Assembly (NCBI RefSeq): GCF_024362805.1
Contig: NZ_CP093299.1
Coordinates: 4,434,001 to 4,498,000, forward strand
DNA from: Salipaludibacillus sp. LMS25
GTDB lineage: Bacteria > Bacillota > Bacilli > Bacillales > Salisediminibacteriaceae
Direction of reading: 5' to 3'
DNA: 64,000 nucleotides
The notes below the pieces were generated by a model that made no database searches, was not told the DNA's origin, and saw only the letters and a program-made list of their open reading frames with translations. Numbering within the stretch: the first letter of the stretch is position 1; the number at the start of each line of letters is the position of its first letter. The position numbers were made by a program, and so were the translations under genes. Positions 1,140-43,773 of this stretch are shown here, one piece after another.

Positions 1140-1249
1140 ATAAAGCTAAGCTTCAATCAGTGGGAGTTTTCCTTCATCCCCCACCTAAACTTTTCGATCT
1201 TCTTAAGTTTTGAGGTGAGGGTTTTACTGCCCCTTAAGAGTGGGATAAA
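1140..1249 (+). repeat. repeat A, 110-bp form
   Basis: Begins ATAAAGCTAAGCTTCAATCAG and ends CTTAAGAGTGGGATAAA. It keeps the stem formed by CCCCCACCT and its complement near the 3' end. It lacks about 50 bp compared with the full-length copies, exactly as if two ATCCCCCAC direct repeats had recombined. Same form as the copy at 19321. Confidence 0.85.
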
Positions 1250-1252
1250 TAT

Positions 1253-1278
1253 ACCCAAGGGCTATTGCACCCTTGGGT
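1253..1278 (-). terminator. hairpin terminator of the DUF2207-like gene
   Basis: Perfect inverted repeat ACCCAAGGG / CCCTTGGGT with an 8-nt loop, 38 bp beyond the stop of the minus-strand gene at 1316. The tract after it on the minus strand is A/T-rich. Confidence 0.6.
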
Positions 1279-1315
1279 GATGAATCATTTTGCCAAATCA
1301 GTAGCTCGCCGCACG

Positions 1316-2335
1316 TTACTCTGAAATACCTTCCGGGCCGTCTGCCATTTCATACGTCATCGAGGAAAGGATATGCTCAAAGGACGTCTCCATGTCGTTA
1401 ATTAGTTCCACACCTTCAGTGGTAACTGCTACAGCTCCTGGCCCACTCGTCGCTATATAAAGAGGAAATTGATTATTTTTCAGTGATACTTGGGAAGCTT
1501 CTTTAATAGGAAACTTCTTCACATACGTATCACTTAAGTTAAATGCAATGGCATACACATACCTCAAGGTCAGCGATTCATGATCTTGATACTCTGACGG
1601 TGGCTTTTCCTTAATATCACGAATAAACGGTACCCATTTTTTGTATTCCGCCCACCCTAGATGGGTCATTGACGAGTATGTTAACATAATGAGAAATGTC
1701 GCCGCACCGCTAATGAAAAACAATAAACTTAGTAAGCCTGACGAGACAATAAATCCACTTCCTAACAACAGCATGACGACACCGATAGCAGTTAATACGC
1801 GCTTTAAAAAAGGAAATGTATCAACTAATTTTTCCTCTATTAGCTTAAGTCGCATTAACTCCTCCCACTCATACAACCGTTCGAGGAACTGTTCTCGTTT
1901 CGTCTTATCTTCCGTATAAACTAGTAAATCACCCACAAAAAATTTACCGCTCGTCCCTATGTCATAAAGGAGCCAGTCTATTAAATAAGCTTCTTCTTTG
2001 GCCAGGTCATGACGTTGATTAGCCTCTTTTTCATAAAAATAATAGCTTCCTGTCTCTTCAGATTTAGTCAAGGTAATGTAGCGCTTCCTGACAAGATCTA
2101 GCAATCCAGCTGTGAGATGTCTCGTATAAACTCCCTTTCCATAAATAAGTTGGGAAATAAGTTGTGGAGAGAATTTAGCAAAATCTGCATCTGATAACGT
2201 CTGCTGTGAAACTTTGTCCAACACTTTACGCCGCTGTAGGCGTTCACCGCTCACGAGAAGTATCACAACTGTACTCAAGACAACAAATATGATTAAAAAA
2301 AACAATTCAGTGATGGTCAGCTCTGGCACAGCCAC
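1316..2335 (-). CDS. DUF2207-like membrane protein
   Basis: 339 residues. There is an N-terminal membrane segment (about residues 8-27), then a charged cytoplasmic stretch (about 30-180). Two adjacent membrane segments follow (about 183-225), and then a C-terminal cytoplasmic part with YVYAIAFNLSDTYVKKF. This layout matches the C-terminal half of DUF2207 membrane proteins, whose function is unknown. The larger N-terminal extracytoplasmic domain usual in that family is missing. No enzymatic motif is seen. It stands alone, with a terminator just downstream and a 70-bp gap to the VTT gene upstream. The family call is moderate. Confidence 0.55.
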   Translation of the reverse strand: MAVPELTITELFFLIIFVVLSTVVILLVSGERLQRRKVLDKVSQQTLSDADFAKFSPQLISQLIYGKGVYTRHLTAGLLDLVRKRYITLTKSEETGSYYFYEKEANQRHDLAKEEAYLIDWLLYDIGTSGKFFVGDLLVYTEDKTKREQFLERLYEWEELMRLKLIEEKLVDTFPFLKRVLTAIGVVMLLLGSGFIVSSGLLSLLFFISGAATFLIMLTYSSMTHLGWAEYKKWVPFIRDIKEKPPSEYQDHESLTLRYVYAIAFNLSDTYVKKFPIKEASQVSLKNNQFPLYIATSGPGAVAVTTEGVELINDMETSFEHILSSMTYEMADGPEGISE

Positions 2336-2408
2336 CCTTATACCCTCCTCTTAAAGGTCATACGCCTCATCCATTTAAATATCTCATTTACCTAACACGA
2401 ACACTTGC

Positions 2409-3077
2409 CTATTCTTGTATCTCATGTTTAAATATGCCTCGTCCAGCATAATAGCTACTTATAGTCAAGACAAAGATAATATAGCTCAAAAGATAAGGCC
2501 TAAACACATTGTCAGGCATCCAAAGGGGTGCGGACAATAAACTTAATAACCATATCATTGACATATTCCCTAGAACAGAGGACCATATATAGGGCCGTAA
2601 AGAGAGAGGACTTACCGCCGCAGCAATTGAGATAAGATTACTGGGCATAATAGGGATACTTCTTAACACGACCAACATATAGACACCGTAAGAAGCAATT
2701 AACCTTAACACATAGGCTAACCTTCTTTCATTTCTTTCCCAAAAGTGCTCTACCCAGTGTGAACTAAATGATCTGGCGAACCAAAAACAGGTGAGAGCCC
2801 CTAATGTCGTCCCAATTAAACTAAATAAGAACCCTTCAATTAACCCAAAAAGATGGAAATGCATGATAATTAAGAGAAGGACAGGGAATAGTGTTATCAC
2901 GTTTTGCACAATCATGAGCGGAATCGTGATCCATAATAACCTATAGCCCACTTCCTCAAATACGTCCTCTGTAAAATAGCTCATATCCCCTTGGCGAAGA
3001 TGAACGATCCACTCCCAGTTAATCGTAATAAATAGAAAAAGAGCGATTAGTAATATAATCATTGCCCATTTCTTCAT
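2409..3077 (-). CDS. TVP38/TMEM64 (VTT domain) membrane protein
   Basis: 222 residues with about six hydrophobic segments. The central region carries the VTT-type signature: the glycine-rich re-entrant helix around GLIEGFLFSLIGTTLGALTC, and further on the RSIPIMPSNLISIAAA segment. VTT proteins are membrane proteins related to DedA, and lipid scrambling or transport has been proposed for them. This is one of two VTT genes in the window; the other is at 12452 and is only distantly similar. Probably monocistronic: it is separated from the MFS gene upstream by a strong hairpin. Confidence 0.8.
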   Translation of the reverse strand: MKKWAMIILLIALFLFITINWEWIVHLRQGDMSYFTEDVFEEVGYRLLWITIPLMIVQNVITLFPVLLLIIMHFHLFGLIEGFLFSLIGTTLGALTCFWFARSFSSHWVEHFWERNERRLAYVLRLIASYGVYMLVVLRSIPIMPSNLISIAAAVSPLSLRPYIWSSVLGNMSMIWLLSLLSAPLWMPDNVFRPYLLSYIIFVLTISSYYAGRGIFKHEIQE

Positions 3078-3161
3078 AGTATGTGACCCCTATCTAAGAT
3101 ACTGAGCTGTTTCTGTCCCCATTATAACGAATATACGTGTGAATTTAAACGGATAGGCGTT

Positions 3162-3207
3162 AACGCTTAAGACCGATGACAGTGAAAAATCATCGGTCTT
3201 AAGCGTT
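3162..3207 (-). terminator. terminator of the MFS gene
   Basis: Perfect 18-bp inverted repeat (3162-3179 and 3190-3207) with a 10-nt loop. The right arm overlaps the stop codon of the minus-strand MFS gene, so the 3' end of the reading frame is part of the stem. Confidence 0.75.
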
Positions 3208-4356
3208 TACTTTCCGGGAATTCTTTAAGAAAACATAGCGATATCCTAGTGCACTGACGAACCCAACAATCGCAATGCAGACCATCACATAATAAACAGT
3301 TCTTACATCAAAGCTATTAATGATAACGCCTCCAAATAGAGACCCTGTGACACCAGAAAAGCCAAAAAAGACTGCAATAAATAAAAGGTGACCTGTGGAT
3401 TGTAGATGCTCGGGCACAAGCTTAGAGACAAATTGAAAGGCTGTCAAATAAAAGGTCCCAAATGCCAGACCATGCATCACCTGTAAGATAAGTACGAACT
3501 CAGGGCCAGGAGCCATTGCCATTAACAGCCACCTCATCATATAAATAGCCGCAGCAAACGTTATGAGAGTTAACGGATGAAACTTATAAAGCCAATAAAT
3601 ACTTAACCCAAACACGATAGCCTCCATAATCACCCCTATAAACCACGCTAAACCGATAACAGATTCGTCACCGCCTAGCTCAATGATATACAAACTTAAA
3701 AAAGAGTCATTCATACGATGTGTTAAACTAATCGCTAATATAACAGCTAAAAAAACGACTAATTCACGTTCTTTGAGTAACCTAAACGCTTCAATCAGCT
3801 GAGCCGGTCTCTTCGTGGGCTCACTATCTGGTGCTAAGCATGTTAATAGAATAGCCAGTAATAAAAAAGACGCAAAGACATAATAAATATTAGCGATACC
3901 GATATAGCTCAATATATAGCCTCCTGCTAAAGAAGCAGATCCGAAACCAAGGGACCCCCACATACGAATACTGCCAAATGACACACCACGTTGAACCGAT
4001 ACTTTTTGAGATAAACTATCACCAAGGCCCCCTGCAGGAGACATGAAAGAAAAAAACACAAACATAACTGGAAATAACAAGAAAAATTCTTCAAGCTGAA
4101 AAAAGACGAAACCGACAAAAAAAGCACTGCTTAAACACATTAAGAGAATCCGTTTGACTGTTTTCCGCCGATCACTCATAAATCCCCAAAACGGTTGGGC
4201 AACAATAGCTGCTGCTGGACCAACAGCAAGGAGCATACCTATTTCAGACCCGTTAAGTCCTAACGATTGAAAATAAACAGGTAGGTAACTGACTATGATC
4301 GTCATTGCCGCGTGGAAAAAAAACAACATGCCTTTCAATTTCCAAATTGATGCCAT
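3199..4356 (-). CDS. MFS transporter, MFS_1-like
   Basis: 385 residues with about 12 hydrophobic segments. The loop between segments 2 and 3 carries the MFS signature-like FWGFMSDRRKTVKR. The fold and size resemble the MFS_1-like group (phenylpropionate permease/HcaT and nucleoside:H+ symporter relatives). The substrate cannot be told. It lies 37 bp downstream of the EAL gene on the same strand, so co-transcription with it is possible. It ends in an 18-bp stem that acts as terminator. Confidence 0.8.
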   Translation of the reverse strand: MASIWKLKGMLFFFHAAMTIIVSYLPVYFQSLGLNGSEIGMLLAVGPAAAIVAQPFWGFMSDRRKTVKRILLMCLSSAFFVGFVFFQLEEFFLLFPVMFVFFSFMSPAGGLGDSLSQKVSVQRGVSFGSIRMWGSLGFGSASLAGGYILSYIGIANIYYVFASFLLLAILLTCLAPDSEPTKRPAQLIEAFRLLKERELVVFLAVILAISLTHRMNDSFLSLYIIELGGDESVIGLAWFIGVIMEAIVFGLSIYWLYKFHPLTLITFAAAIYMMRWLLMAMAPGPEFVLILQVMHGLAFGTFYLTAFQFVSKLVPEHLQSTGHLLFIAVFFGFSGVTGSLFGGVIINSFDVRTVYYVMVCIAIVGFVSALGYRYVFLKNSRKVNA

Positions 4357-4393
4357 AATAAACTACCCTCTCGTTTTCCGCTATAAAAACACT

Positions 4394-5602
4394 CTAGTGA
4401 AGCCAATCGTTCTCAAATAAAAAAACGGGGTCAAGATCTATAAAAATATAATGTTCATCCCCTAGAGGGTATGAATAAGTACGAATGAGTTCATTCGTTT
4501 CTATATCTCGATATTTATCAGATAACATGCCTGATTTACGATACTTCATTTGCATAATTTGAGCAAGAAAATACGTACGCCAGCTCCAATTTTTCCCTCG
4601 TGGCGTTTCATCTGACAACCATTGTTTATCTTCATTTTTAATCCAATTTGGGCTTTTCTGATAGCCATACACATCACATACATAGACACGAAAAGAGGCA
4701 TCATGCGTTTCTTTTGCAATATTTTCAACAAGCTGATCAGTAAACGTTTCCTGACTCTTTTCTTCCATTTTCGCATCCATCCACCGGATAAAGTCAATTT
4801 GACTTTGTAACTTCCTATGAGCCTTATCAATAAATGAATGGATACTTTTTTGCAGGAAAGGTTGAATGATATATTCGTCTATAAATTCATTTACAGGCTC
4901 ATGAAGGTAAAAACCTTGTAAATAACGACCGCCATGCTTCCACGCTATGTGAAGTTGGTGAGCATCTTGAATCCCTTTAAAATGTAATGCAGCACCAATT
5001 TTTCTAGCAAATATGGATAAAGCACTTAACACATCTCGATACGTATGCACGTTGACAGAAGATTTTAAGTCAGATAATTCTACTTTGATAATATTTGGTT
5101 CCAGTTTAGATAATTGATCTAAATTAGCATCATTCGTTTTTATATCATCTAATGCAACACTATAGCCGCTCGCTTTCATGTACATGATCATATGACTTAA
5201 GTCGGTGAAATCTCCATGAAAATCCGTCAATCTCATTTCAAATACGATTTGTTTTCTATGTAATCCATCTTTACAAAATTCCTCAAAAAGTTCCATTAAT
5301 TCTTCTAAGCAATGGAGTTGCACAAGGGTATTAAGATCCACATTAAAAAATAATCGAGATAAAAGCTTTCCTTCCAAAACACGCTTAACAGCTTGACGAT
5401 AAATCTCTTTATCCACTTCCCATTTATATTCAGGCGGAACAGATAAATCGCGAAAAAAAGGGCCTAACGATTTGAGTGTATCACCTTGATTTAGTCGGCC
5501 GAGTACTTCATATCCGATAATCCGATACTCACTAGAATTTAAAACTGGCTGAAACATCGGTACGATATGGGGTACATTTTCAATGACTTCTAATGGATCC
5601 AA
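4394..5602 (-). CDS. ykuI: YkuI-type EAL domain protein
   Basis: 402 residues, the length of B. subtilis YkuI. An EAL phosphodiesterase domain occupies about residues 15-250; the motif reads EVL rather than EAL, as in YkuI itself. A long helix follows, then the PAS-like YkuI C-terminal domain (about 290-400) with the conserved KNWSWRTYFL and IRTYSYPLGDEHYIFIDL stretches. YkuI of B. subtilis binds cyclic di-GMP, but its phosphodiesterase activity is doubtful, so a sensory or binding role is as likely as c-di-GMP breakdown. Cytoplasmic. The RBS before ATG is GGGGGAAT. Confidence 0.88.
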   Translation of the reverse strand: MDPLEVIENVPHIVPMFQPVLNSSEYRIIGYEVLGRLNQGDTLKSLGPFFRDLSVPPEYKWEVDKEIYRQAVKRVLEGKLLSRLFFNVDLNTLVQLHCLEELMELFEEFCKDGLHRKQIVFEMRLTDFHGDFTDLSHMIMYMKASGYSVALDDIKTNDANLDQLSKLEPNIIKVELSDLKSSVNVHTYRDVLSALSIFARKIGAALHFKGIQDAHQLHIAWKHGGRYLQGFYLHEPVNEFIDEYIIQPFLQKSIHSFIDKAHRKLQSQIDFIRWMDAKMEEKSQETFTDQLVENIAKETHDASFRVYVCDVYGYQKSPNWIKNEDKQWLSDETPRGKNWSWRTYFLAQIMQMKYRKSGMLSDKYRDIETNELIRTYSYPLGDEHYIFIDLDPVFLFENDWLH

Positions 5603-11917: not shown

Positions 11918-11972
11918 ATAAAGCTAAGCTTCAATCAGTGGGAGTTTTACTGCCCCTTAAGAGTGGGATAAA
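11918..11972 (+). repeat. repeat A, 55-bp form, fused to the end of a degraded repeat B
   Basis: ATAAAGCTAAGCTTCAATCAG, then GTGGGAGTTTT joined directly to ACTGCCCC and the normal end. It is preceded without a gap by GGTTCTCTGTGATAAA, the type B 3' end, so the two elements share the ATAAA junction. Same size as the copy at 27733. Confidence 0.8.
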
Positions 11973-13848: not shown

Positions 13849-14007
13849 ATAAAGCTAAGCTTCAATCAGTGGGGGTTTTTCGTTCTTCCTCCACTGCTTG
13901 GTAGGTGAGTCAATCAGGACATTAGCGGCCGTTAGCTCATCCTATATAGAGTTAGCTCTTCTCTCTAGTTTGACTCGGGAGGTTTACGGACAGTTATCTG
14001 TGATAAA
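13849..14007 (+). repeat. chimeric repeat: type A left end, type B body and right end
   Basis: Starts with the A-type ATAAAGCTAAGCTTCAATCAG. It then continues with the B-type sequence (AATCAGGACATTAGCG, CTCGGGAGGTTTACGG, ends GTTATCTGTGATAAA). It shows that A and B exchange parts. Confidence 0.8.
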
Positions 14008-15286: not shown

Positions 15287-15446
15287 ATAAAGCTAAGCTT
15301 CAATCAGTGGGCGTTTTCCTTCATCCCCCCCTGATTGTTCGTTTAACTTATGGGACCTTTAGGGGCCGTTTATCCCCCACCTAAACGTTTTTCGATCTTC
15401 TTAAGTTTTCAGGTGGGGTTTTACTGCCCCTTAAGAGTGGGATAAA
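15287..15446 (+). repeat. repeat A, full length
   Basis: About 160 bp. Left stem CAATCAGTGGG / (C)CCCTGATTG and a right nested stem: GGGGCCGT and CCCCCACCT pair with AGGTGGGG and ACTGCCCC. Ends GAGTGGGATAAA. Confidence 0.88.
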
Positions 15447-15667: not shown

Positions 15668-15789
15668 ATAAAACGAACCTTCAATCAGTAGGAGTTATTG
15701 TTCTTCTCCCACTGATTGGTCTGAGTGAATCAGGACTTTAGCCTCCGTTATCTCTCCTCTCTATTTTCAGACGGTTTATCTGTGATAAA
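15668..15789 (+). repeat. repeat B, shortened
   Basis: Starts ATAAAACGAACCTTCAATCAG, has the CCCACTGATTGG right arm of the first stem and ends GGTTTATCTGTGATAAA. About 37 bp shorter than the 159-bp copy at 19722 because the middle (CCGCCTATATAG region) is missing. Confidence 0.82.
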
Positions 15790-19320: not shown

Positions 19321-19430
19321 ATAAAGCTAAGCTTCAATCAGTGGGAGTTTTCCTTCATCCCCCACCTAAACTTGTCGACCTTCTTAAGTTTTGAGGTGGG
19401 GGTTTTACTGCCCCTTAAGAGTGGGATAAA
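19321..19430 (+). repeat. repeat A, 110-bp form
   Basis: Identical in plan to 1140-1249: the first stem's right arm and the following about 50 bp are deleted between ATCCCCCAC direct repeats. It begins 15 bp beyond the sspP stop. Confidence 0.85.
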
Positions 19431-19721: not shown

Positions 19722-19880
19722 ATAAAACGAACCTTTAATCAGTGGATGTTTTCGCTCTTCTCCCACTGATTGGTAGTTGAGTCAATCAGGACATTAGCGA
19801 CCGTTAGCTCCTGCCTAAATGGCGTTACCTCTCCTCTCTATTTTGAGCCGGGAGGTTTACGGACGCTTATCTGTGATAAA
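19722..19880 (+). repeat. repeat B, full length
   Basis: 159 bp, a good reference copy. Starts ATAAAACGAACC, left stem arms around AATCAGTGG and CCCACTGATTGG, right stem CCGTTAGCTCC with GGGAGGTTTACGG, ends CTTATCTGTGATAAA. Confidence 0.88.
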
Positions 19881-20186: not shown

Positions 20187-20237
20187 ATAAAACGCCCCTC
20201 AATCAGTGGGAGCTTATGGACGATTATCTGTGATAAA
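20187..20237 (+). repeat. repeat B, 51-bp form
   Basis: ATAAAACGCCCCTCAATCAG joined to GGACGATTATCTGTGATAAA. Only the two ends of a B element remain. Matches the inverted short copy at 43722. Confidence 0.75.
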
Positions 20238-21369: not shown

Positions 21370-21418
21370 CGATATGTCACTCCAGTTTAATAAGATATTA
21401 ATGCTGTACTCGTAACAA

Positions 21419-22141
21419 TTATTTCAATACGAGTCCTTTTTCCCGGAATTTCTTACGGTCCCGTTTAAGTGGCTTTTGGAACACCACTAAGTGCCAATTG
21501 GCCTTCATGAACAGTGCTTTGTATATAAATTTAACGGCTACATGGCTTAAAAAAAGAAAAAAACCTACAAAACAAATAAACAAGACAGACCACATTAAAA
21601 ATTCCGATTGTCTAGTAAGTGACTGGCCAATAATATACCCAATACCAGGGCCAGTAGTTAACCAACTACTGTAATAAATATAATGAGACTTTTTCTTCTT
21701 AGTTGGGTCAGCGTACTTATTTATTTGATAGAACATAAATACAAAAATACTACTTATATAAATGATATTACTCACTATAAAATAAACTGGTGAAGAAATA
21801 TTAAGATGAAAAAAAGCCGTAAACTGTAATAAGCACAAATAAATAATAACACCTAGTAAGGAAATCAACCCTACAAACCAAATGGATTCGTATTGGACCG
21901 TATAAGGATTTTTAAACAAAATTCTTAACATCCATAAGTTCATTCCAACCACTGGCACTAATAAAACATAATAAAATGCCAAAGGGAGAGGAACAGTTAT
22001 CAAATATAAAACTCCTAAATCAACTAATAACAGAGTAAAGCTGGCTACTATTATTTTAATATTATAGGTTTCTATAAAACTTAAAAAAACTAAATAATGC
22101 TGTGGAAGGTTATTCCGCTTAAAGGATGGTTTTAATTGCAT
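21419..22141 (-). CDS. polytopic membrane protein, probable LXG-toxin immunity (paralogue 2)
   Basis: About 240 residues, six hydrophobic segments. The ends FKRNNLPQHYLVFL and ALFMKANWHLVVFQKPLKRD are nearly the same as in the broken third paralogue; KNPYTVQYE and TTGPGIGYIIGQ lie between. The start is the ATG at 22141 behind AGGTGGTAATAAA, not the one at 22174. A remnant of a toxin C-terminus lies immediately upstream (22195-22370), so this gene was probably the immunity partner of that lost toxin (inference). Confidence 0.65.
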   Translation of the reverse strand: MQLKPSFKRNNLPQHYLVFLSFIETYNIKIIVASFTLLLVDLGVLYLITVPLPLAFYYVLLVPVVGMNLWMLRILFKNPYTVQYESIWFVGLISLLGVIIYLCLLQFTAFFHLNISSPVYFIVSNIIYISSIFVFMFYQINKYADPTKKKKSHYIYYSSWLTTGPGIGYIIGQSLTRQSEFLMWSVLFICFVGFFLFLSHVAVKFIYKALFMKANWHLVVFQKPLKRDRKKFREKGLVLK

Positions 22142-22370: not shown

Positions 22371-22418
22371 TACCCCTGGAAAATTCGTTATAATTTAAAT
22401 AATGTGACTTGCCATTAT

Positions 22419-23285
22419 TATTTTATTATGAACCCTTTTTCCCGGAATTTCTTACGGTCCCGTTTAAGTGGCTTTTGGAACACCACTAAGTGCCAATTGG
22501 CCTTCATAAATAGGGCTTTATAAAAAAAATTTAGCAGCTACGTGGCTTAAAAACAAAGAAAAGAATAAGAAAATACAAAATAAAACTAACCATGTTAAAT
22601 ACTTAGAGTGTCTCATAACAGCTTGATCAATGATATAGCCTATACCCGGTCCAGCCGTTAACAGTCCGCTATGATAGATATAATCAGGTTTTCGTTTCTT
22701 AGTGATGTCAGAGTATTTATTAATTTGATATTTTAAAAACACAAAAGTAGTAATAAGAAAAATGATATTACTCGTAAATAAGAATAATACAGTTGTTAAA
22801 TTCAACATGAAATAAGCGATTCCTTGGAAAAAAATCAAATAAAGAACCGAGCCTATGACATCAATTACCCCAATAAAGCTAAACTTCAATCAGTGGGAGT
22901 TTTCCTTCATCCCCCACTGATTGTTCGTTTAACTTATGGGACCTTTAGGGGCAGTTTATCCCCCACCTAAACTTGTCGATCTTCTTAAGTTTTCAGGTGG
23001 GGGTTTTACTGCCCCTTAAGAGTGGGATAAACCAAATAAATTCATACTGAACTGTGTACGGATTCTTACATAATAGGCGGATCATCCAAATATGTGCCAC
23101 GATAACAAGAGGAAGGACGAGATAATAAACAATCAGCGGAAAAGGAAAGTAAATAAACGACTCCCAGAAAGAATTAGCGTAAATGTAACGCTTGAAAATT
23201 TAACTTTAAATGTTTCCACAAAGCCTAAAAAATTAAGAAAGTGTTTGGGAAGCTGGTTACGTTTAAGAGTAGAGTCTAACCGCAT
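22419..23285 (-). pseudogene. third immunity-like membrane gene, broken by two frameshifts and a repeat A insertion
   Basis: Begins ATG at 23285 after GGGGAGG with a reading frame parallel to paralogue 2 (LKRNQLPKHFLNFLGFVETF). A frameshift falls near the second membrane segment, after which a shifted frame reads PLIVYYLVLPLVIVAHIW and KNPYTVQYEFIW. The 159-bp A element (22873-23031) then interrupts it. Beyond the element the frame continues as FIGVIDVIGSVLYL and TAGPGIGYIIDQ. A further slip in a T-run near 22527 separates the KALFM-equivalent tail, ending EKGFIIK at 22419. It lies next to the intact LXG toxin. Confidence 0.85.
22873..23031 (+). repeat. repeat A, full length, inside a coding sequence
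   Basis: 159 bp with all stems intact. It splits the membrane gene above, in the antisense direction relative to that gene. The flanks join KNPYTVQYEF.. to ..GVIDV, so the pre-insertion sequence can be reconstructed from the paralogue. Confidence 0.9.
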
Positions 23286-27310: not shown

Positions 27311-28072
27311 ACAGTTTCCCCCTAAATTAAGAGTTATTCAGTTGCTTTAGTATCTGTTGCAACTTGGACAAAAGATATTATTCTTTCGTCCATCCAACAC
27401 AATAACAGAGAATCATAACAATCCTGTAATAGAAATATTATATTTCTGTATCAAAACTTCCAATTTAAACTATATATTCTTTTTTATTCAATTAAATTAG
27501 AGCGTTCATATGATATAACCAGTTCTTTTTTATTGTCCGATCTTTTCATCGAATTACGTAAGGCTAGGTTTCTAAAAGTCAATAGTTATTTTACTGCTAT
27601 GATATCTTGTATTGTTATAAGTGTTTAAAAATTAGTATCATAATCCTTTTATTTTGTATACGCCCCCATTGTCACAGGTCATTCCTTGATAAAATACATT
27701 AGCTTTCCCTTTAAAGAACTTAAACATTTCACATAAAGATAAGCTTCAATCAGTGGGGGTTTTACTGCCCCTTAAGAGTGGGATAAAACGAGAACCTAAA
27801 CTGATAACTGAGAAAAGAAGACTTGAATTTCGCATGGAAAACAAGAAGATCACTTTAAACTGACTTAATGTTCATAGATTATTTAATGAAAGAAGTCGTT
27901 ATGAAAATGCATGTGAAGATGTGTTAAGCATTAAAAATGTAATCTTTACTAGTGACAGCTTAACAACGAGAGGATGGTAAATTCTTGTGAGCTTAGTGCT
28001 TTTAAAACGAGGCATAGGAAATTAATTTCTCACATGGAACAGAATGAACGGCGACACGACTTAAGCAAGCAC
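27311..28072. other. long gap without a gene
   Basis: Contains the 55-bp A repeat at 27733. Nothing else can be supported. Confidence 0.5.
27733..27787 (+). repeat. repeat A, 55-bp form
   Basis: ATAAAGATAAGCTTCAATCAG, GTGGGGGTTTT joined to ACTGCCCCTTAAGAGTGGGATAAA. The whole middle is gone between GTGGGRGTTTT direct repeats. Confidence 0.85.
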
Positions 28073-29465: not shown

Positions 29466-29628
29466 ATAAAAGCTAAGCTTCAATCAGTGGGCGTTTTCCT
29501 TCATCCCCCACTGATTGTTCGTTTAACTTATGGGACCTTTAGGGGCAGTTTATCCCCCACCTAAACTTTTCGATCTTCTTCTTAAGTTTTGAGGTGAGGG
29601 TTTTACTGCCCCTTAAGAGTGGAATAAA
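29466..29628 (+). repeat. repeat A, full length
   Basis: 163 bp because of an extra CTT in the loop of the second stem and an extra A at the start. The end reads GTGGAATAAA instead of GTGGGATAAA. Confidence 0.88.
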
Positions 29629-31507: not shown

Positions 31508-31661
31508 ATAAAACGAACCTTCAATCAGTGGAGCTTTCGTTCTTCCCCCCCCTGGGAGATGAGTGAATCAGGACATTAGCCTCCGTTATCTGCCGCCTAT
31601 ATAGATTATCTTCCCTCTCTATTTTGAAGCAGGCATTCTTCAGACGGTTATCTGTGATAAA
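31508..31661 (+). repeat. repeat B, full length
   Basis: 154 bp; first stem degraded (CCCCCCCCTGGG in place of CCCACTGATTGGG), second half intact; ends GGTTATCTGTGATAAA. Directly follows the symporter terminator. Confidence 0.85.
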
Positions 31662-32044: not shown

Positions 32045-32098
32045 TATAGGTTAAAACTGACTGCTCATATGCAAATTATTAAAAAAGGAGAATTCATT

Positions 32099-32524
32099 AT
32101 GATTAAAAAAATGGCCCCTCTCGCTCTCTCAGCCATCATGATTCTCACATTATTACCAGCTCAAGTATCTGCTTCAAATCATGTCGACACTAAGTTTGCA
32201 TTTAGAGTCAGCACTTCCAATAATTATGCTGCTACGCCAGGTCGAGCAAAACACAATACGACGTCTACGTACATTAAGATAGATCAGGTGCCTGGTGCCT
32301 ACATTTATCTAACAGTACAAGGCTTTCGGCCATCTCATAAATGGGTAAACGAGACAAAAGACGGCAGGCAAACAGCCACACCAGGTCAATGGCTTGTTAG
32401 ACAATCAGTCTATGAAAATGGCGGGCGAAGTGCCAGACTTAGATTCCAACGGTACGGGGCCTCTGGAGTCGTTTCCGGCGTATGGAGTCCTGATAGTGTC
32501 GGTTCTTATCCTCGTTTAAATTAA
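32099..32524 (+). CDS. secreted small protein, paralogue 1
   Basis: 141 residues. Signal peptide MIKKMAPLALSAIMILTLL with cut after QVSA (about residue 25), leaving about 116 residues. The mature part has TSTYIKIDQVPGAYIYLTVQ, GRQTATPGQWLVRQSVYENG, RSARLRFQRY and VWSPDS. No cysteine. It resembles in plan the DUF2712 and lactococcin-972-like small secreted proteins that sit beside ABC transporters, but I cannot place it in a family. The start is the ATG after AAAAAAGGAGAATTC; an upstream in-frame start would include that RBS. It is a tandem duplicate of the next gene. Confidence 0.75.
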   Translation: MIKKMAPLALSAIMILTLLPAQVSASNHVDTKFAFRVSTSNNYAATPGRAKHNTTSTYIKIDQVPGAYIYLTVQGFRPSHKWVNETKDGRQTATPGQWLVRQSVYENGGRSARLRFQRYGASGVVSGVWSPDSVGSYPRLN

Positions 32525-32705
32525 TCATCGCTTAATACTATGACATACAATAGAAGAAATGATCAAAGAAGCTCACTTTTAAAAACCTGCTCGGCATTTC
32601 CCATATTTGTTTGTCTTCTTGTGATCTATTCGTCTCTTCTATAGAAGAGACAGCTTCGTGTTAAAGCAAATGACGGCACAAATGTTGTAAAATAATTAAA
32701 CATTT

Positions 32706-32776: not shown

Positions 32777-32832
32777 CGTAGGTTAACCGACTGAGTGCTC
32801 ATGAGCAAATTAATAAAAAAGGAGAATTCATT

Positions 32833-33273
32833 ATGATTAAAAAAATGGCCCCTCTCGTCCTGTCAGCCATCATGATTCTCACACTACTACCAGCTCAAGC
32901 GTTTGCTTCAAATCATGGAGATACTGGTTTTAGATTTAACGTCAATACTTCTAATAATTATGGCACCACAGGTAGTCGAGCAAAACAAAATACGACGTCT
33001 ACGTACGTTAAGATAGATCAGGTACCTGCTGCCTTTATTTATTTACACGTACAAGGCTTTCGGCCATCTTCAACTACCGGTTCAAACTATTGGGCAAATG
33101 AAACAGTCGGCGGCAGACAAACAGCCACACCAGGTCAATGGCTTGTTAGACAAATGGTTTATGAAAATGGCGGGCGAAGCGCCAGACTTAGATTCCAACG
33201 CTATTCGGCATCTGGAACTGTTATGGGTGTATGGAGTCCTGATAGTATCGGTTCTTATCCTCGTTTAAACTAA
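32833..33273 (+). CDS. secreted small protein, paralogue 2
   Basis: 146 residues, about 75% identical to paralogue 1 by eye. Signal peptide to about residue 25 (cut after QAFA). The mature part starts SNHGDTGFRFNVNTSNNYG and has the same TSTYVKIDQVPAAF, GRQTATPGQWLVRQ, NGGRSARLRFQRY and GVWSPDSIGSYPRLN ends. It carries a few extra residues in the middle (STTGSNYW). The promoter and RBS region was duplicated with the gene. Likely secreted by the Sec pathway; an antimicrobial or signalling role is possible but unproven. The lipoprotein and ABC genes follow 100 bp downstream. Confidence 0.78.
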   Translation: MIKKMAPLVLSAIMILTLLPAQAFASNHGDTGFRFNVNTSNNYGTTGSRAKQNTTSTYVKIDQVPAAFIYLHVQGFRPSSTTGSNYWANETVGGRQTATPGQWLVRQMVYENGGRSARLRFQRYSASGTVMGVWSPDSIGSYPRLN

Positions 33274-33371
33274 CCTTTGCTTTAGGCAGTGTCAAACAGT
33301 GAAAGAAGCAGGAGTATTTTATTCTGCTTCTTTCTACCATGATAAAACGTACGACAAGGAGAAATGATCTT

Positions 33372-37113: not shown

Positions 37114-37284
37114 TGCCTAACGCGCCCCTGGATAGTTTAACGAACTCGCTCCCTTCAGGGTTGTTTTTATTTCTATACCATGTTCAATTATTTCATAGCG
37201 TTTCAGACATTTTGTGTTAAATTGACTTTTTCTCCTAATGTTCTTAAATTAGGATTTTAAATTTCTTTCACTTGATACAATATA

Positions 37285-37393: not shown

Positions 37394-37542
37394 CAGATGT
37401 GGCGCACTCCTTCTTTTAAAAAAAACACATGTGGCTGAGACTATTCAGCAATGTTAGCTTATCTCTGTTGGAAATTTAATTGTGAAATATATTCACCTAC
37501 ATAAAATCCCCTCTATATGTAGAAAAAAATGGTATACTAATT

Positions 37543-37701
37543 ATAAAGCTAAGCTTCAATCAGTGGGAGTTTTCCTTTATCCCTCACTGATTGTTAGTTT
37601 AACTTATCGGACCTTTAGGGGCAGTTTATCCCCCACCTAAACTTTTCGATCTTCTTAAGTTTGGAGGTGAGGGTTTTACTGCCCCTTAAGAGTGGGATAA
37701 A
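37543..37701 (+). repeat. repeat A, full length
   Basis: 159 bp; lies 38 bp before the start codon of the histidine kinase, so it forms most of the presumed leader. Stems as in the other full copies with three base changes (CCCTCACTGATTG). Confidence 0.9.
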
Positions 37702-37739
37702 TCAGTTGCTCAAAACATAATAAGGCAGGTTCACTTAAC

Positions 37740-39086
37740 ATGATATTTTCATCCCCTTTTTTTGTGCTCGAATTGGCTTCGATCTGTTGTGCCCTCTTTT
37801 ATACGTTTAACATGCGACCAACAATTAAAAAAGTCGTGATAGGTATTTTCATCATTATTGCGCCATCTATTCTTTGTTACTTATTTATCTTTAAGTGGTT
37901 AGGGTGGCTTTATTTTTTCATCTCGCTAGCGGGTATCATTTATGCATACACGAAAGAAAGACGTATTTTCTTGGATGTCCCTATTCTTGCTATCGCAAGT
38001 TCAATCTCTGAGAATCTCTCTCAGGTTATTCGATTTACGATTTTCATTGAACAGGACCTGCCTGTTGTTTTAGTCACTGCTGGTTTATTTTTGTTGTTTT
38101 TTACATTTTTTACATACCTTTATCGCTTATTTATAAAAAAAGTATGGCATAGAATCTTTATGCCAGTTATTAGTCAGTTTATTTTAATAACGATTGCTTG
38201 CATGACTGTAGGTATTTTATATATTAACCTCTTTATGTCATTAAATGAGAACCTTTATTATCTCGCCATGTTTAACTTAATGATTGAAGTGGTTTATTTT
38301 CTCTTAATGTTTGTCTTATCTGTGATTCTACTTAGAAACGTTAAGAAAGAAAATATGTTAAAACAAAAAGAAACCGAACAGCAACAACTGCATCATTACA
38401 TGGAATCGTTAGAACAAATTAATAAAGACATGCAGAGGTTCAGGCATGACTATAAAAATATTTTAACGACGATGCAAGGCTATCTTAATGAGAATAATGT
38501 TGAAGGACTTAAAACATATTTCAATGATCACATCGTTAAAGTTGAAGAACGTACTTTTAAAAGCAATTATTTATTTAACCAATTAGACCAGCTAAAGCTT
38601 GTTGAACTTAAAGGACTGCTCGCTACTAAAATACTTATGGCTGAAGAATTAGATATTGCCATTAATATTGAGGTACCAGATGTCATTGAGGCAATTGACA
38701 TAAATATAATTGATCTCACTCGCATCATTGGCATCATCATTGATAATGCCATCGAAGCAAGTACCGAAATTGAAGAAAGGCAATTGAACATGGCCCTCCT
38801 TAAAAGGAAAGATGACTCTGTTTTAATTATTGTGGAGAATCGTGCTAATACAAACGCAATTAATATGAATCACATTTTTGAGGCTGATTATTCAACGAAA
38901 GATGCCCATAGCGGTATGGGATTAACAACCGTGCGCAAGATTTTAAATGACTATTCAAATATTACGATGAATACCCGTATTGAGAATGATTTTTTTATTC
39001 ATGAACTGGATATACATGCAAGTGATTCACCTCACTCCCCTTCCGTCTTATATAAAACGAACCTTCAATCAGTGGAAGTTGAGTGA
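37740..39086 (+). CDS. AgrC/HPK10-type sensor histidine kinase
   Basis: 448 residues. Six membrane segments in residues 1-200, then a coiled-coil linker and the HPK10 kinase core. Phospho-acceptor His236 lies in FRHDYKN, N-box in IDNAIEAS (near 335-342), and G-box in SGMGLTTVRKIL near 398. This is the class that senses peptides in quorum-sensing systems (AgrC, ComD). No agrB or agrD is found here. The last about ten codons (after SVL) lie in a type B repeat, which also supplies the stop. Its regulator follows at 39233. Confidence 0.88.
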   Translation: MIFSSPFFVLELASICCALFYTFNMRPTIKKVVIGIFIIIAPSILCYLFIFKWLGWLYFFISLAGIIYAYTKERRIFLDVPILAIASSISENLSQVIRFTIFIEQDLPVVLVTAGLFLLFFTFFTYLYRLFIKKVWHRIFMPVISQFILITIACMTVGILYINLFMSLNENLYYLAMFNLMIEVVYFLLMFVLSVILLRNVKKENMLKQKETEQQQLHHYMESLEQINKDMQRFRHDYKNILTTMQGYLNENNVEGLKTYFNDHIVKVEERTFKSNYLFNQLDQLKLVELKGLLATKILMAEELDIAINIEVPDVIEAIDINIIDLTRIIGIIIDNAIEASTEIEERQLNMALLKRKDDSVLIIVENRANTNAINMNHIFEADYSTKDAHSGMGLTTVRKILNDYSNITMNTRIENDFFIHELDIHASDSPHSPSVLYKTNLQSVEVE

Positions 39087-39181
39087 ATCAGGACTTTAGC
39101 GTCCGTTATCTCCCGCCTATATAGATTTATCTCTCCTCTCTATTTTGAGCCGGGAGGTTTACGAACGGTTATTTGTGATAA
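39052..39181 (+). repeat. repeat B, 130-bp form, overlapping the kinase 3' end
   Basis: ATAAAACGAACCTTCAATCAG starts inside the kinase coding region at 39052. The first stem's right half is missing; the rest is intact, ending GGTTATTTGTGATAA. Confidence 0.88.
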
Positions 39182-39232
39182 CGTCAATCGTTTAACAAAT
39201 ATGAACGAAGATGAGCAGAAAGGAGTTTATTA

Positions 39233-40006: not shown

Positions 40007-40089
40007 ACTGTAACTCAGAACTGCGGTACAGGCGCTTATTTATAGCAATTTCTACATTACTATTATTAACTTAGTATTCTGATTGATTT

Positions 40090-40246
40090 ATAAGATGAAC
40101 CTTCAATCAATGGAAGTCTTCGTTCTTCTCCCCACTGATTGGGAGATGAGTGAATCAGGACATTAGCCTCCGTTATCTGCCGCCTATATAGATTTACCTC
40201 TCCTCTGTATTTTGAGTGGAGTTTTACGGACGGGTTATCTGTGATA
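40090..40246 (+). repeat. repeat B, full length, end altered
   Basis: 157 bp; ATAAGATGAACCTTCAATCA start, CCCACTGATTGGGAG, right-hand stem reduced (GTGGAGTTTTACGG) and end GGTTATCTGTGATATG. Downstream of the response regulator gene. Confidence 0.82.
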
Positions 40247-40318
40247 TGAAAACGGATTTTCTCTGATCTGTCGTGATTGTCTCTGTGTTACTAGCAACAG
40301 ACTTCTTGCTAAATATAT

Positions 40319-40358
40319 AAGGCCCTTCACCTTGATTAAACTCCTGATGAAGGGCTTT
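40319..40358 (-). terminator. terminator of dacC
   Basis: AAGGCCCTTCA / TGAAGGGCTTT stem (one G-T pair) with an 18-nt loop, 4 bp beyond the dacC stop on the minus strand. Confidence 0.7.
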
Positions 40359-40362
40359 CGTT

Positions 40363-41850
40363 TCAATGATTTGTTTCTTTGCTGAATGTGGCAAGTCTAA
40401 CAGCAATCTCGTCTTCAATATGCTTTGGATGACTGCCGATATAGTTGTTAATCATGATCGAAAAAATCAATTCTTCCTCATCTTGCGTCGTTACGTATCC
40501 TGACAATGATGTTTTTGAGGTGATTGTGCCTGTTTTTGCTTGTACATTCCCTTCCGCAACGGTACCTCTCATACGGCTACCCAACGTTCCCCCTGTCAGT
40601 CTGTCTTCATCACCAGCAAGAGGTAAGGATTCACGATAAGTATCATACCATGTTTCCTGTTGAACATATTGAAGAAGTTTTGTCATGTCTTCCACTGGTA
40701 TTTTATTTAAATGAGACATACCTGAGCCATCCCGGAGCTGAATCGCTTCAGTATTTAACCCTGCTGTTGTTAAATAGGCCTCCACGACATTTAAACCAGC
40801 CTCCCAACTACCTTCACCATGTACTTCTTGCCCCATCGTTTTTGTTAATATTTCAGCAATACCATTGTTACTTAACTTCATAAATGGGACAAACAACTCT
40901 TCCAACGGAATCGACTCTTGCTCAACGATTAATTTTGAGTTTTCGGGTGTTTCTCCTAGTTTCAACTTACCTTGTAGTTGGATTCCGTGCTTTTTCAGTG
41001 CATCGTGAAATAAGTGCTGAACTAAATTTGTCGGTTCCCAAACAGTAACCAACTCCCGCCATCCATCCCCACTTTTCGGTATATTCCCTTTTATAAAAAT
41101 GCGATTGTTGCCGTGCTCTCGTCCCCATTCTATCGCTTGTGTGCTAGTCTCTTTACTTGTCGTGACATCATTGAAAAGGGTCAGATAATCAGTCTCTGGA
41201 AAAATTGTCACGGCGGCATCGTCTCCTTTGTTTTCCCCAGGAAGAACTTTCAGGATCACAGAACCGGTGTCATAATTGTCATTGGGTGAAATCGTTAACG
41301 CTGAGACTTGGGCAGCGGTGTGACGGGGTTGGTTAAACCAAGACATGTCCAGTGATAATCTCATATCATCAAAAAACGTGTCATCCGCTACTAAGTCTCC
41401 TTTAATCACCTTAATACCATCCTCTGCCAGTTCTTTAGCAAATTGCTCGTAATCGTCTGAAAGCCTAGTAGGGTCACCGGTCCCTTTCAGATAAAGGTCA
41501 CCGTGCAACACTTCTTCTGATTTATTCCCGTCATAATAAAGCCCCGTTTTAAATGTGTAATTGGGTCCTAGTGTGTCTAAAGCAGCCGCACCTATCAACA
41601 GTTTTTGACCAGATGCCGGTACCATACTCGTCTCACTGTTATAAGAAAAAATAGTTTCTCCAGATTTTGCTGACCTCACGTGTATAGCTGGCAAAGCATG
41701 ATCCAATTCTTCTTGTTGTAAGATGTTTACTAAGTCTGATTTAAGCATATCTTCAGGTGTTAAGTCTGACTCTGCTGTGAACATAAACGGAAGAAAAATA
41801 AAGCTAAAACAGATTGTCAGAATCGTAATCACGTTGTGTTTTTTGTTCAC
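40363..41850 (-). CDS. dacC: D-alanyl-D-alanine carboxypeptidase/endopeptidase (class C PBP, S13)
   Basis: 495 residues; B. subtilis DacC (PBP4a) has 491. Signal peptide of about 26 residues. Active-site SxxK is Ser80-Lys83 (VPASGQKLL), SxN is in LSNNGIAE (about 325), KTG is in AKTGTITS (about 440), with the extra S13 insert (about 105-270) between the first two. It trims peptidoglycan stem peptides outside the membrane. Starts GTG, behind AAGGAGTGATGATACG. Convergent with the two-component genes. Confidence 0.9.
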   Translation of the reverse strand: MNKKHNVITILTICFSFIFLPFMFTAESDLTPEDMLKSDLVNILQQEELDHALPAIHVRSAKSGETIFSYNSETSMVPASGQKLLIGAAALDTLGPNYTFKTGLYYDGNKSEEVLHGDLYLKGTGDPTRLSDDYEQFAKELAEDGIKVIKGDLVADDTFFDDMRLSLDMSWFNQPRHTAAQVSALTISPNDNYDTGSVILKVLPGENKGDDAAVTIFPETDYLTLFNDVTTSKETSTQAIEWGREHGNNRIFIKGNIPKSGDGWRELVTVWEPTNLVQHLFHDALKKHGIQLQGKLKLGETPENSKLIVEQESIPLEELFVPFMKLSNNGIAEILTKTMGQEVHGEGSWEAGLNVVEAYLTTAGLNTEAIQLRDGSGMSHLNKIPVEDMTKLLQYVQQETWYDTYRESLPLAGDEDRLTGGTLGSRMRGTVAEGNVQAKTGTITSKTSLSGYVTTQDEEELIFSIMINNYIGSHPKHIEDEIAVRLATFSKETNH

Positions 41851-42101
41851 CGTATCATCACTCCTTTTCTTAATTTTCAGTTATTAAGTTCACTTCATTT
41901 TGTATGTGTCATCCGACTTACCCCTAATATAGCCATATGCCTGACAGGTCAAACAGCTTACCACGATGTTAAGTCTACTGTTCTACCGAAGTTTTTTTAT
42001 ATATAATCTTTTTTTGCTAAATTTTAAACGCTTACCGACTTAAACCTTTTCAGAACAGTGGAAATGTCGTAAAATAAAAAGCGAAAGAAAGAGGTGTGTC
42101 T

Positions 42102-42539
42102 ATGCCCAACGATATATTTATGATTTTTATCATTTTGTGGACCATTTTCGTTTTTGTTTTTGTAGCTATTGGTGGTTACTTCATGTTTCGTAAATTTCTC
42201 AAAAAAATGCCTAAAGAAGATGGAAAATCTATATTGGACTGGCAAGAGTATTATATTAATGAAACACTTCATTTATGGTCTGACGAGCAAAAGAAATTTC
42301 TTAATGAACTAGTGGAACCTGTACCTGAATTATTTCGAGATGTTGCAAAAGGAAAGATTGCTGGTAAGATAGGAGAATTAGCTTTAGATAGTGATGCCGA
42401 GGAAATAAATGAGGGATTAATAATTAAAGGGTATATATTAGCCACGCCAAAACGGGATCATAAATTTCTTCGAAAAAAACTTAAAGAAAAAAATATTGAT
42501 ACAACCCCTTATGAAAGGTATTTTCTCCAATCATCTTAA
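42102..42539 (+). CDS. yneK: DUF2621 membrane protein YneK
   Basis: 145 residues. One N-terminal membrane segment (about 6-28), then GGYFMFRKFLKKMPKEDGKS, LDWQEYYINETLHLW, VPELFRDVAKGKIAGKIGELAL and ATPKRDHKFLRKKL, all conserved in B. subtilis YneK. Function unknown. The ATG at 42102 is preferred (GAGGTG five bases upstream); a GTG two codons earlier overlaps that RBS. Convergent with ccdC, its neighbour in B. subtilis. Confidence 0.88.
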   Translation: MPNDIFMIFIILWTIFVFVFVAIGGYFMFRKFLKKMPKEDGKSILDWQEYYINETLHLWSDEQKKFLNELVEPVPELFRDVAKGKIAGKIGELALDSDAEEINEGLIIKGYILATPKRDHKFLRKKLKEKNIDTTPYERYFLQSS

Positions 42540-42561
42540 ATGAGGTAATAATCTAAAATAC

Positions 42562-42590
42562 AGACCCCGGTGTTTAGAGTGCCGGGGTCT
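42562..42590. terminator. bidirectional terminator between yneK and ccdC
   Basis: Perfect AGACCCCGG / CCGGGGTCT stem with an 11-nt loop. The right arm includes the ccdC stop codon. Confidence 0.8.
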
Positions 42591-43095
42591 ACACTTGGAC
42601 TGTCAATTCCGTTTGATTAGTATGATGACGTGCCTGTAACTGTTTTTCCATATCTTTAAATTTAATATACATGGCGATCCGCCAAGGTACTATCATGCCA
42701 AAAGCAAGAATAAAAAACATGCCCGCTAGCACTTCATAATCAAAATAAATACCAAAAATTAATTTAACGATGATTCTAACAGCTAAAAGACCAAATAAAA
42801 TGAACGGAAACGCTTTCGACCGCTTCATATATATATCATTGTTACGAATTTCAAAGGCAGATGTTTTAATGAGCACAATTGAAAATAACAGACCGACTGT
42901 CAACGCTTCGACTATTTCAAATAAGGTAATTTCTCGCACTGGCGGATAAACAAACATCATAAAACCCGTGGACATAGCAATAGGTGGGATAAGTATTTTC
43001 TTAACGGACGCCGGCTTTTGCATCGCCTTCATTCTAACGAAAAAGGCAAAGAGTGCCATACAAACAGCCAATATTGAAAACAAAACTGGATACAT
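42589..43095 (-). CDS. ccdC: CcdC-family membrane protein
   Basis: 168 residues, five membrane segments, with KILIPPIAMSTGFMMFVYPP and IKTSAFEIRNNDIYMKRSKAF as in B. subtilis CcdC (YneJ, DUF1453). In B. subtilis it lies between ccdA-yneI and yneK. CcdA and the YneI response-regulator-like gene, which usually precede it, are absent in this window. CcdC itself is not needed for cytochrome c maturation in B. subtilis. RBS GGGGGTC. Confidence 0.85.
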   Translation of the reverse strand: MYPVLFSILAVCMALFAFFVRMKAMQKPASVKKILIPPIAMSTGFMMFVYPPVREITLFEIVEALTVGLLFSIVLIKTSAFEIRNNDIYMKRSKAFPFILFGLLAVRIIVKLIFGIYFDYEVLAGMFFILAFGMIVPWRIAMYIKFKDMEKQLQARHHTNQTELTVQV

Positions 43096-43311
43096 AGAAT
43101 GACCCCCTTCTCATACTGAACCGCCCCTAATTATATCACACTTCATGTCTCTTTAATGTGATTACAACCAAAAAACACAGAAGCTTGTTTATTCCTAATA
43201 TGGTAGTTGGTATGTGGAACGGTGTTGATAATAACTATCTTAGGTATTTGCAAGTCGTTATAGCTTATCTAAGTTTTTTATACACATGTGATGTGAAAGA
43301 AATAAAAAAAG

Positions 43312-43347
43312 AGTATAGCCTTCACTCAATGAGTATCAGGCTATACT
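43312..43347 (-). terminator. terminator of yjzC
   Basis: Perfect AGTATAGCC / GGCTATACT stem; followed on the minus strand by a run of seven T. Confidence 0.75.
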
Positions 43348-43366
43348 TCACGTTATCACTAATTTA

Positions 43367-43573
43367 TTAAACTAACATCCATTTATGTTGACGATCTCTC
43401 ATGTGTTCACCTTTATATTCAATCTTTACTTGGTACGTTTTGAATTCAGGTAATTTATCACCTTGTTTTGCTTCAATACGTTGTGCATCTTTAACGGGAG
43501 CTCCACCGTGACCGACTTCAACATACGTTCCTTCTAATTTAACTTCTGTACCACCTTGTAATAAATGACTCAC
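43367..43573 (-). CDS. YjzC family small protein
   Basis: 68 residues; EVKLEGTYVEVGHGGAPVKD followed by AQRIEAKQGDKLPEF matches the YjzC core (EIGETG..VKNP..I.L..GD.FP). The C-terminal RDRQHKW is also similar. Function unknown. Unlike B. subtilis YjzC it has a longer, charged end. Confidence 0.65.
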   Translation of the reverse strand: MSHLLQGGTEVKLEGTYVEVGHGGAPVKDAQRIEAKQGDKLPEFKTYQVKIEYKGEHMRDRQHKWMLV

Positions 43574-43721
43574 ATCAATCTCCCCTAACGTTGTTATGAT
43601 AACAAAAGTATTATATAAGAGAAACTTTCAAAAGTATAGTTTTTCAAACTAAAATGTGACAATACTACCATTTTTCAAGTTTAAAATGGGGTTAATAACC
43701 ATTTATGACTATCTTTTATCC

Positions 43722-43773
43722 TTTATCACAGATAACCGTCCGAAAAGTTCCGCACTGAAAAGGGGCGTTTTAT
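43722..43773 (-). repeat. repeat B, 52-bp form, the only copy in reverse orientation
   Basis: On the minus strand: ATAAAACGCCCCTTTTCAG joined to GGACGGTTATCTGTGATAAA. Same reduced form as 20187-20237. Confidence 0.75.

Follow-up and report, generated by a model that had tools for sequence, protein, structure and literature searches.

The stretch of DNA analyzed here, hereafter the window, comprises bases 4,434,001-4,498,000 (64,000 nucleotides) of the single 4,525,667-bp contig of Salipaludibacillus sp. LMS25 (genome G000), and it contains sixteen copies of a short repeat that typically begins and ends with the pentamer ATAAA. These repeats are real, mobile, structured and replication-polarized elements; a full copy consists of some 155 nt of non-coding mobile DNA together with a single ATAAA. 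Two sequence types are found, which have their left part in common and end on the right in CCCCTTAAGAGTGGGATAAA (type A) or GGTTATCTGTGATAAA (type B); mosaics of A and B also exist, as does a deleted form of 55 bp. A preliminary description of the window had listed sixteen repeats, fifteen of them on the plus strand, and both the starts and the strand split hold, fifteen copies having been recovered by BLAST and the 51-bp copy at 20187 read from the sequence. Its full length of about 159 bp is right for eight of the sixteen (13849, 15287, 19722, 22873, 29466, 31508, 37543 and 40090, 154-163 bp) and wrong for the other eight (51-131 bp), which are products of internal deletion, the 55-bp form occurring twice. 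The copies are given below with the basis of the call or with the state of the corresponding site in two congeneric genomes that also carry the family, G024 and G030.

1140..1249, plus strand: A-type, internally deleted, 110 bp, ATAAA ends; the empty counterpart has one ATAAA in G024 and ACAAA in G030
11918..11972, plus strand: deleted A form, 55 bp; its left ATAAA is common to a B-type right-end remnant directly upstream (TCTGTGATAAA)
13849..14007, plus strand: mosaic, 159 bp, left end A-type and body B-type; sequence
15287..15446, plus strand: full A-type, 160 bp; BLAST, sequence
15668..15789, plus strand: shortened B-type, 122 bp; BLAST, sequence
19321..19430, plus strand: A-type, internally deleted, 110 bp; not in G024 or G030, but the flank is rearranged there
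19722..19880, plus strand: full B-type, 159 bp; site occupied in G024 and G030 too, hence an older insertion
20187..20237, plus strand: deleted B form, 51 bp; read from sequence
22873..23031, plus strand: full A-type, 159 bp, served as query; empty in G024 and G030, with exactly one ATAAA each
27733..27787, plus strand: deleted A form, 55 bp; sequence
29466..29628, plus strand: full A-type, 163 bp; sequence
31508..31661, plus strand: B-type, 154 bp; sequence
37543..37701, plus strand: full A-type, 159 bp, amid plus-strand open reading frames (ORFs); sequence
39052..39182, plus strand: shortened B-type, 131 bp, right end ATAAC; sequence
40090..40248, plus strand: B-type, 159 bp, ends decayed to ATAAG and ATATG; sequence
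43722..43773, minus strand: deleted B form, 52 bp, the sole minus-strand copy of the window; sequence

The repeats exceed chance by a wide margin in the genome as a whole, in which the 14-mer CTTCAATCAGTGGG, with at most two mismatches allowed, occurs 393 times in forward and 387 times in reverse orientation (7 and 4 for the reversed pattern) within 4.53 Mb. A sample of 40 evenly spaced 20-kb stretches and the window (41 stretches, 864 kb, 19% of the genome) was examined for individual copies, opposite-strand hits to the same hairpin being removed by keeping the best overlapping hit, which reduced 192 clusters (140 of them obeying the orientation rule given below) to 162 copies (137 obeying it). 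The 146 copies in the 800 kb outside the window correspond to about 800 per genome, which to our knowledge is among the larger repeat loads of bacteria. Element copies make up 2.6% of the sampled sequence, and all except one (161 of 162) lie outside simple ORF calls of at least 100 amino acids. Both ends are recognizable in 112 of the 162 copies, with ATAAA on both sides in 84; outside the flanking pentamer the base composition is near background, so that the element ends are sharp.

Mobility, which the preliminary description had supposed, is evident from clean empty sites and lineage-specific insertions in G024 and G030, both of which are syntenic with the window (82-91% identity in aligned blocks). 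The comparison covered parts of the two genomes, 151 of 165 G000 copies not being placeable against G024 and 153 of 165 against G030. A script classed 32 element-site comparisons as empty; in 11 of them exactly five bases stand in the element's place, the other 21 having rearranged, truncated or poorly aligned junctions that are uninformative. Seven separate insertions underlie these 11 comparisons: two belong to G030, one to G024 and four to G000, the last comprising window copies 1140 and 22873 and those at genome positions 4,310,878 and 235,242. The five bases are ATAAA in nine cases, ACAAA in one and ATATA in one. Because one pentamer is present at empty sites and two at filled sites, insertion takes place at a single ATAAA and leaves two. 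The earlier view that there is no clear target-site duplication is thus in need of revision, as the two ATAAA constitute in form a 5-bp direct repeat that is single at empty sites, but it was sound to the extent that the pentamer is nearly fixed. Among 75 A copies at least 90% identical to the consensus, the left pentamer departs from ATAAA in three and the right in eight, and no left variant agrees with any of the seven right variants (out of eight) available for comparison; such one-sided variants are compatible both with ATAAA as a duplicated target and with one target plus one element-borne copy.

Tandem copies share 5 bp because insertion takes place at ATAAA and leaves one on each side. 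The G030 genome includes a head-to-tail array of nine B-type copies (C1:2588573-2589959, locus L109) with a period of 154 (once 150), in which neighbors share one ATAAA. In 150 further loci (120 taken from a scan of named genomes and 30 from a class-wide search, to which G000 itself contributed one), close neighbors overlap by exactly 5 bp in 13 of 13 cases, and ATAAA stands at both ends of 101 of the 120 full copies, a count that leans to ATAAA since the profile includes the ends. At locus L082 (1480-1510), as at window 11918, an A-type copy adjoins a B-type right end with one ATAAA common to both.

The orientation of the elements follows replication. The single dnaA match of G000 lies at 1,890,738, where the GC skew passes from negative to positive, reverting between 4.20 and 4.29 Mb; the terminus boundary was set at 4.25 Mb for the count. 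In both arms, ATAAAGC..CTTCAATCAG reads along the C-rich strand, so that the TTTAT strand is the lagging-strand template, a rule that is kept by 137 of the 162 copies (two-sided p 7e-20) and by 122 of 146 without the window, the orientation flipping at the origin (dnaA) and near the terminus. Copies between tandem ORFs that run with replication keep the rule in 61 of 72 cases, and those between ORFs that run against it in 14 of 17 (p 0.013); because the latter still keep it, the orientation follows replication and not gene direction. The rule also holds in G024 (26/27), G030 (37/41), G017 (21/24) and G019 (18/24), for which positions were taken from the listed best matches and the terminus was assumed to lie opposite dnaA. 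Thus, the tie to the replichore proposed from the strand bias of the window extends genome-wide, with nothing like random orientation, and the polarity is of the IS200/IS605 kind that had been proposed, one strand lying in the lagging-strand template; replication-linked insertion bias is reported for IS200/IS605, Tn7 and others in the available parts of PMC5371812 and PMC6006769.

Grouped by identity to the query copies, which is a rough clock only, the rule is kept by 26 of 29 copies at 96% or above, 59 of 68 at 90-96%, 43 of 53 at 80-90% and 9 of 12 below 80%. The tendency of exceptions to rise with divergence is suggestive only, the comparison of A plus short forms with B giving p = 0.08. 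Copies near to the query copies show a bias no weaker than that of divergent ones, which hints that the bias arises at insertion.

On the ATAAA strand the element consists of ATAAA, GTGAAACTT, hairpin 1, TTAGTTGAACC, AATCGGGC, hairpin 2 (two stacked stems) and GCGGGATAAA. In an alignment of 21 sequences, 89% of the cells pair according to a structure written by hand, versus 36-48% in slid controls, and the covariation score exceeds those of all shuffles. A class-wide alignment, which was fitted to the model, has 41 rows drawn from 33 loci; 35 of these rows are true copies and the other 6 are antisense or spurious. Of its 32 pairs, 28 have changed on both sides (shuffles 14.7, slid controls 14-19), and pairing extends to 92.7% of the cells; the strong covariation signal derives from this set and not from the first alignment. 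Covariation across genera marks the two stems of the preliminary description as selected, and the reported absence of terminal inverted repeats also stands, the hairpins being subterminal. At the foot of hairpin 1 there is a tandem G.A mismatch in 27-28 of the 35 copies (standard pairs instead in 6), and at the foot of hairpin 2 GG is opposite GG in 25-32 of the 35. These are the mismatches of the ATAAA strand, the opposite of which would show C.T and C.C; there is also a weak excess of G.T on the ATAAA strand (50 versus 30 A.C, p 0.03, in an alignment that leans to the plus strand). Judged from these sequences, the strand that folds may be the ATAAA strand.

Enlarged elements with both conserved ends retained are present in Bacillaceae bacterium Marseille-Q3522 (L228:1891-2390 and L249:1763-2248), the extra sequence being in the loop of hairpin 1 and in several repeated hairpin modules of about 60 nt between the hairpins; the longest open frame of the L228 element is 73 amino acids, stop to stop.

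A covariance model of the family (R1), applied under stricter filters to the class, detects it in 47 of 398 Bacilli genomes, which represent 27 of 146 genera and 20 families (tallied from rows; one carrier, G117, has E 9e-4 only). The distribution is patchy: there is a BLAST match in 5 of the 35 genomes of the host's own family, the host's genus has three carriers and five genomes without a BLAST match, and genus g5 has two carriers and seven non-carriers. A pattern scan of named genomes found at least 120 stretches, with Paenibacillus, Lysinibacillus, Sporosarcina, Siminovitchia, Cytobacillus, Peribacillus, Evansella, Amphibacillus, Neobacillus, Domibacillus and Halalkalibacterium halodurans, and others, among the matches listed. 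Plasmids are represented by Pseudalkalibacillus, and otherwise by partial relatives (Peribacillus, Klebsiella) and one relative at 69% identity (Niallia). Plasmid pNY3A of Klebsiella grimontii carries a 92-bp truncated copy with both ATAAA ends (L194:3001-3092), from either horizontal transfer or a mixed assembly. One exact 18-base pattern searched against viral contigs and one member searched against phages gave no match, blastn of two members found no plasmid of the Bacillus cereus group, and no description of the family outside the B. cereus group appeared among the papers listed by literature searches.

Apart from the elements, an Rfam search of the window (relatives' loci not included) returned no match above the gathering score, no tRNA was found in it, and none of its proteins that were compared with NCBIfam and Pfam (ten each, three in both; the remaining ORFs were not tested) matched a transposase. 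Two pairs of direct repeats lie over ORFs without a Pfam match, one about 1 kb apart and 70-90% identical (21418-21773 and 22417-22773), the other 0.74 kb apart and 82-84% identical (32056-32558 and 32790-33307); both are likely to be tandem gene duplications.

The best explanation of the whole, which has perhaps an equal chance of being right or wrong, is that the elements are gene-less and IS200/IS605-like, moving as a folded single strand at TTTAT. The data show that an element inserts whole at a pre-existing ATAAA (TTTAT opposite) and leaves ATAAA on both sides, that copies stack head to tail with one pentamer shared, that the two long hairpins are maintained by compensatory change across genera, and that the TTTAT strand serves preferentially as lagging-strand template. 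Beyond this, movement may be as a circle or a linear form (no excision or circle was observed), with a trans-acting nuclease or ligase that would cut and join at TTTAT in single-stranded DNA exposed at the fork; any circle form would carry the junction …GATAAAGC…. Such a mode would resemble the 'peel and paste' of IS200/IS605 without the gene, and its enzyme need not be Y1 or RAYT. Put more tentatively, and less probably than not, this could be a new mobilization system, in which widespread gene-less folded elements of Bacilli copy or paste themselves at ATAAA/TTTAT in fork DNA without a Y1 HUH enzyme, DDE transposase or reverse transcriptase of their own, by means of either an unrecognized enzyme acting in trans or template switching.

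Several observations weigh against the folded-strand explanation. The main tension is that folding of the ATAAA strand, as read from the alignments, would favor either RNA or some single-stranded form that is not the lagging template. RNAalifold recovered 18 pairs with almost no covariation term from the 21-sequence alignment, for which two measures out of five were not above shuffles, namely the number of pairs with changes on both sides (five) and that of further pair types. The orientation bias is about 85% and not absolute, and it is not significant in the small samples from G174 (5/7) and G094 (3/6), counted with rounded genome lengths. One of the 112 copies with both ends has GTAAA on each side, as a true target duplication would give. 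No enzyme was found: G024 and G030, which are 99% complete in one and two contigs and have lineage-specific insertions of their own, contain no match to PF01797 (Y1) or PF00078 (reverse transcriptase).

An alternative that is unlikely, yet deserves serious attention, is that the elements are relatives of IS200/IS605 comparable to the palindrome-associated transposable elements (PATEs), and that an ordinary Y1 transposase, since lost from some carriers, would have moved them in trans. The lack of inverted termini, the subterminal hairpins, the nearly fixed 5-nt target and the replication polarity would all follow, and the PATEs of Haloquadratum, in the available part of PMC3119063, are similar even to 52-bp core-deleted forms and strain-specific insertions where IS200-type genes are disrupted. 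In G000 itself, four IS200 copies are intact and Y1 is further represented by two remnants, in all six of which the tnpA strand is the lagging template, like the TTTAT strand of the elements. Y1 is enriched across the class in carriers (37 of 47, versus 180 of 351 non-carriers; Fisher p = 5e-4, with neither kinship nor genome size corrected for). However, a PF01797 match is lacking in G024 and G030 in the host's genus and in 10 of the 47 carriers counted across the class, some of them drafts, the TnpB profile has no match in any of the three carriers of the genus, and the genus's five non-carriers all have Y1 matches. The ends of the resident IS200 are unrelated to element ends, and a search with R1 of 35 Y1 loci of the host's family (about 1.5 kb on either side), the family to which this comparison of ends was confined, returned neighboring copies of the element and otherwise weak matches only, the strongest of them at 17.9 bits (E 0.06).

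Hence the Y1 or RAYT gene flanked by element ends that the preliminary description had envisaged was found neither at the IS200 copies of G000 nor at these 35 loci, and a Y1 or RAYT transposase as the necessary mover is not supported, in view of the carriers without Y1 and of the failure to find a gene-bearing version. Y1 is nevertheless statistically associated with carriage and may yet play a part; the elements are at most candidate members of IS200/IS605. Two of the four IS200 copies lie at, or within about 8 bp of, an element end (L031:1121-1283 and L034, about 2028-2182), and TTTAT is the left flank of three of the four if the start of the insertion sequence is taken as TAATGG.

No gene-bearing (autonomous) version was found in 81 large stretches (1.66 Mb), nor convincingly in 317 loci (3.0 Mb, overlapping), where 403 left halves are beside their own right half and 59 are not, none of the 59 being convincingly gene-bearing. 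The apparent cases that were inspected proved to be lone ends, enlarged structured forms or, at L197, an ordinary 331-amino-acid ORF between two copies. A gene-bearing version could exist in the approximately 80% of G000 outside the loci searched. The enzyme searches covered Y1, TnpB and reverse transcriptase profiles (DDE transposases and recombinases were not searched); as determinants of carriage within the genus all three were rejected, for their profiles do not track the carriers.

Movement through RNA is improbable; here the ATAAA strand would give rise to a structured transcript, to be copied back into DNA where the nascent leading strand has a 3' end in TTTAT. This route would suit the tandem G.A and GG/GG mismatches and the G.T excess on that strand, and about half of the bcr copies of B. 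cereus are reported as transcribed in the available part of PMC3446304, but PF00078 is absent from G024 and G030 and is represented in G000 only by a remnant that contains 7 stops. Both Y1 and reverse transcriptase matches are present in carriers G017 and G019.

A similarly low probability attaches to an enzyme-free process, by which stalled nascent TTTAT ends would take the ATAAA of an element copy as a new template and then return, adding the body and one ATAAA, with polarity set by the fork and tandem arrays built by repeated rounds. Such switching accounts for the polarity, the nearly fixed 5-nt ends and the arrays sharing 5 bp, including the nine copies in G030, and it fits the absence of Y1 and reverse transcriptase matches in G024 and G030. 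On the other hand, five nucleotides offer little homology, the patchy distribution suggests a transmissible factor, and we know of no precedent for template switching of this kind at about 800 copies.

It is very unlikely that the elements are miniature inverted-repeat transposable elements (MITEs) of the DDE type, with a 5-bp target duplication and an orientation guided by replication. ATAAA is duplicated in form, the copy with GTAAA at both ends would be expected, and orientation bias linked to the fork is known for some transposases (PMC5371812, in the part available); yet there are no terminal inverted repeats, the pentamer is nearly always identical, the left variants do not match the seven right ones compared, and the hairpins covary as single-strand structures. 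Least probable, fixed functional sites (terminators, or folding or segregation signals) that are now immobile and kept in orientation by selection would agree with the position of the copies outside ORF calls and with the replichore rule, but not with lineage-specific insertions and empty sites, with least diverged copies that are no less biased than diverged ones, or with the five of eight genomes of the genus that have no BLAST match.

The interest of the family lies in its repeat load, in its occurrence in at least 27 genera of Bacilli and in the lack of any Rfam match in the window. Their sharp ATAAA ends, empty sites and polarity make the question of what moves bcr1-like repeats testable, and carriers without Y1 and reverse transcriptase matches (G024, G030) narrow the list of candidate enzymes. 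Owing to their replication polarity, the elements are usable as natural markers of replichore history and inversions.

Among known systems, IS200/IS605 elements have in common with the present family a short fixed target, hairpin ends and an orientation set by replication; unlike IS200/IS605, the family has no internal tnpA, the same pentamer at both ends and two carriers without a Y1 gene. TTAT-like loops are visible by eye within the elements, but any guide-type pairing with the cleavage site would be conjectural. REP/REPIN sequences with RAYT are likewise high-copy intergenic hairpins, but the present elements have two hairpins in about 155 nt and no RAYT in two carriers; by eye, a conserved GT[AG]G was not seen at the 5' foot, GTAG being on the 3' side of hairpin 1 in B-type copies and TTAG or TTCG elsewhere. 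Bhal-1, a 74-bp stem-loop family of B. halodurans described in the available part of PMC2267715, might be a fragment of the present family. The B. cereus repeats bcr1-bcr3 or group A (PMC6542083, PMC3446304, PMC2267715, PMC8725734), in the portions of these sources available, resemble it in size (147-167 bp), intergenic position, structure, a TTTAT motif and MITE-like character with no enzyme named, whereas they are described there as specific to the B. cereus group with at most 130 copies, against about 800 copies and at least 27 genera here; this likeness is one of description. PATEs, some of which derive from IS605-type transposons according to the available part of PMC3119063, are the best anatomical match, with no terminal inverted repeats, subterminal palindromes, non-coding size, a short target, core-deleted forms of about 50 bp and lineage-specific insertions, including where IS200-type genes are disrupted. 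Unlike PATEs, the present family has no counterpart of IS605 type with matching ends at any of the Y1 loci examined, and it has a longer, covarying two-hairpin fold, a range across many Bacilli and new insertions in lineages without Y1. The closest kinds are thus the PATEs, as gene-less derivatives of IS605, and, by description alone, bcr1 of B. cereus.

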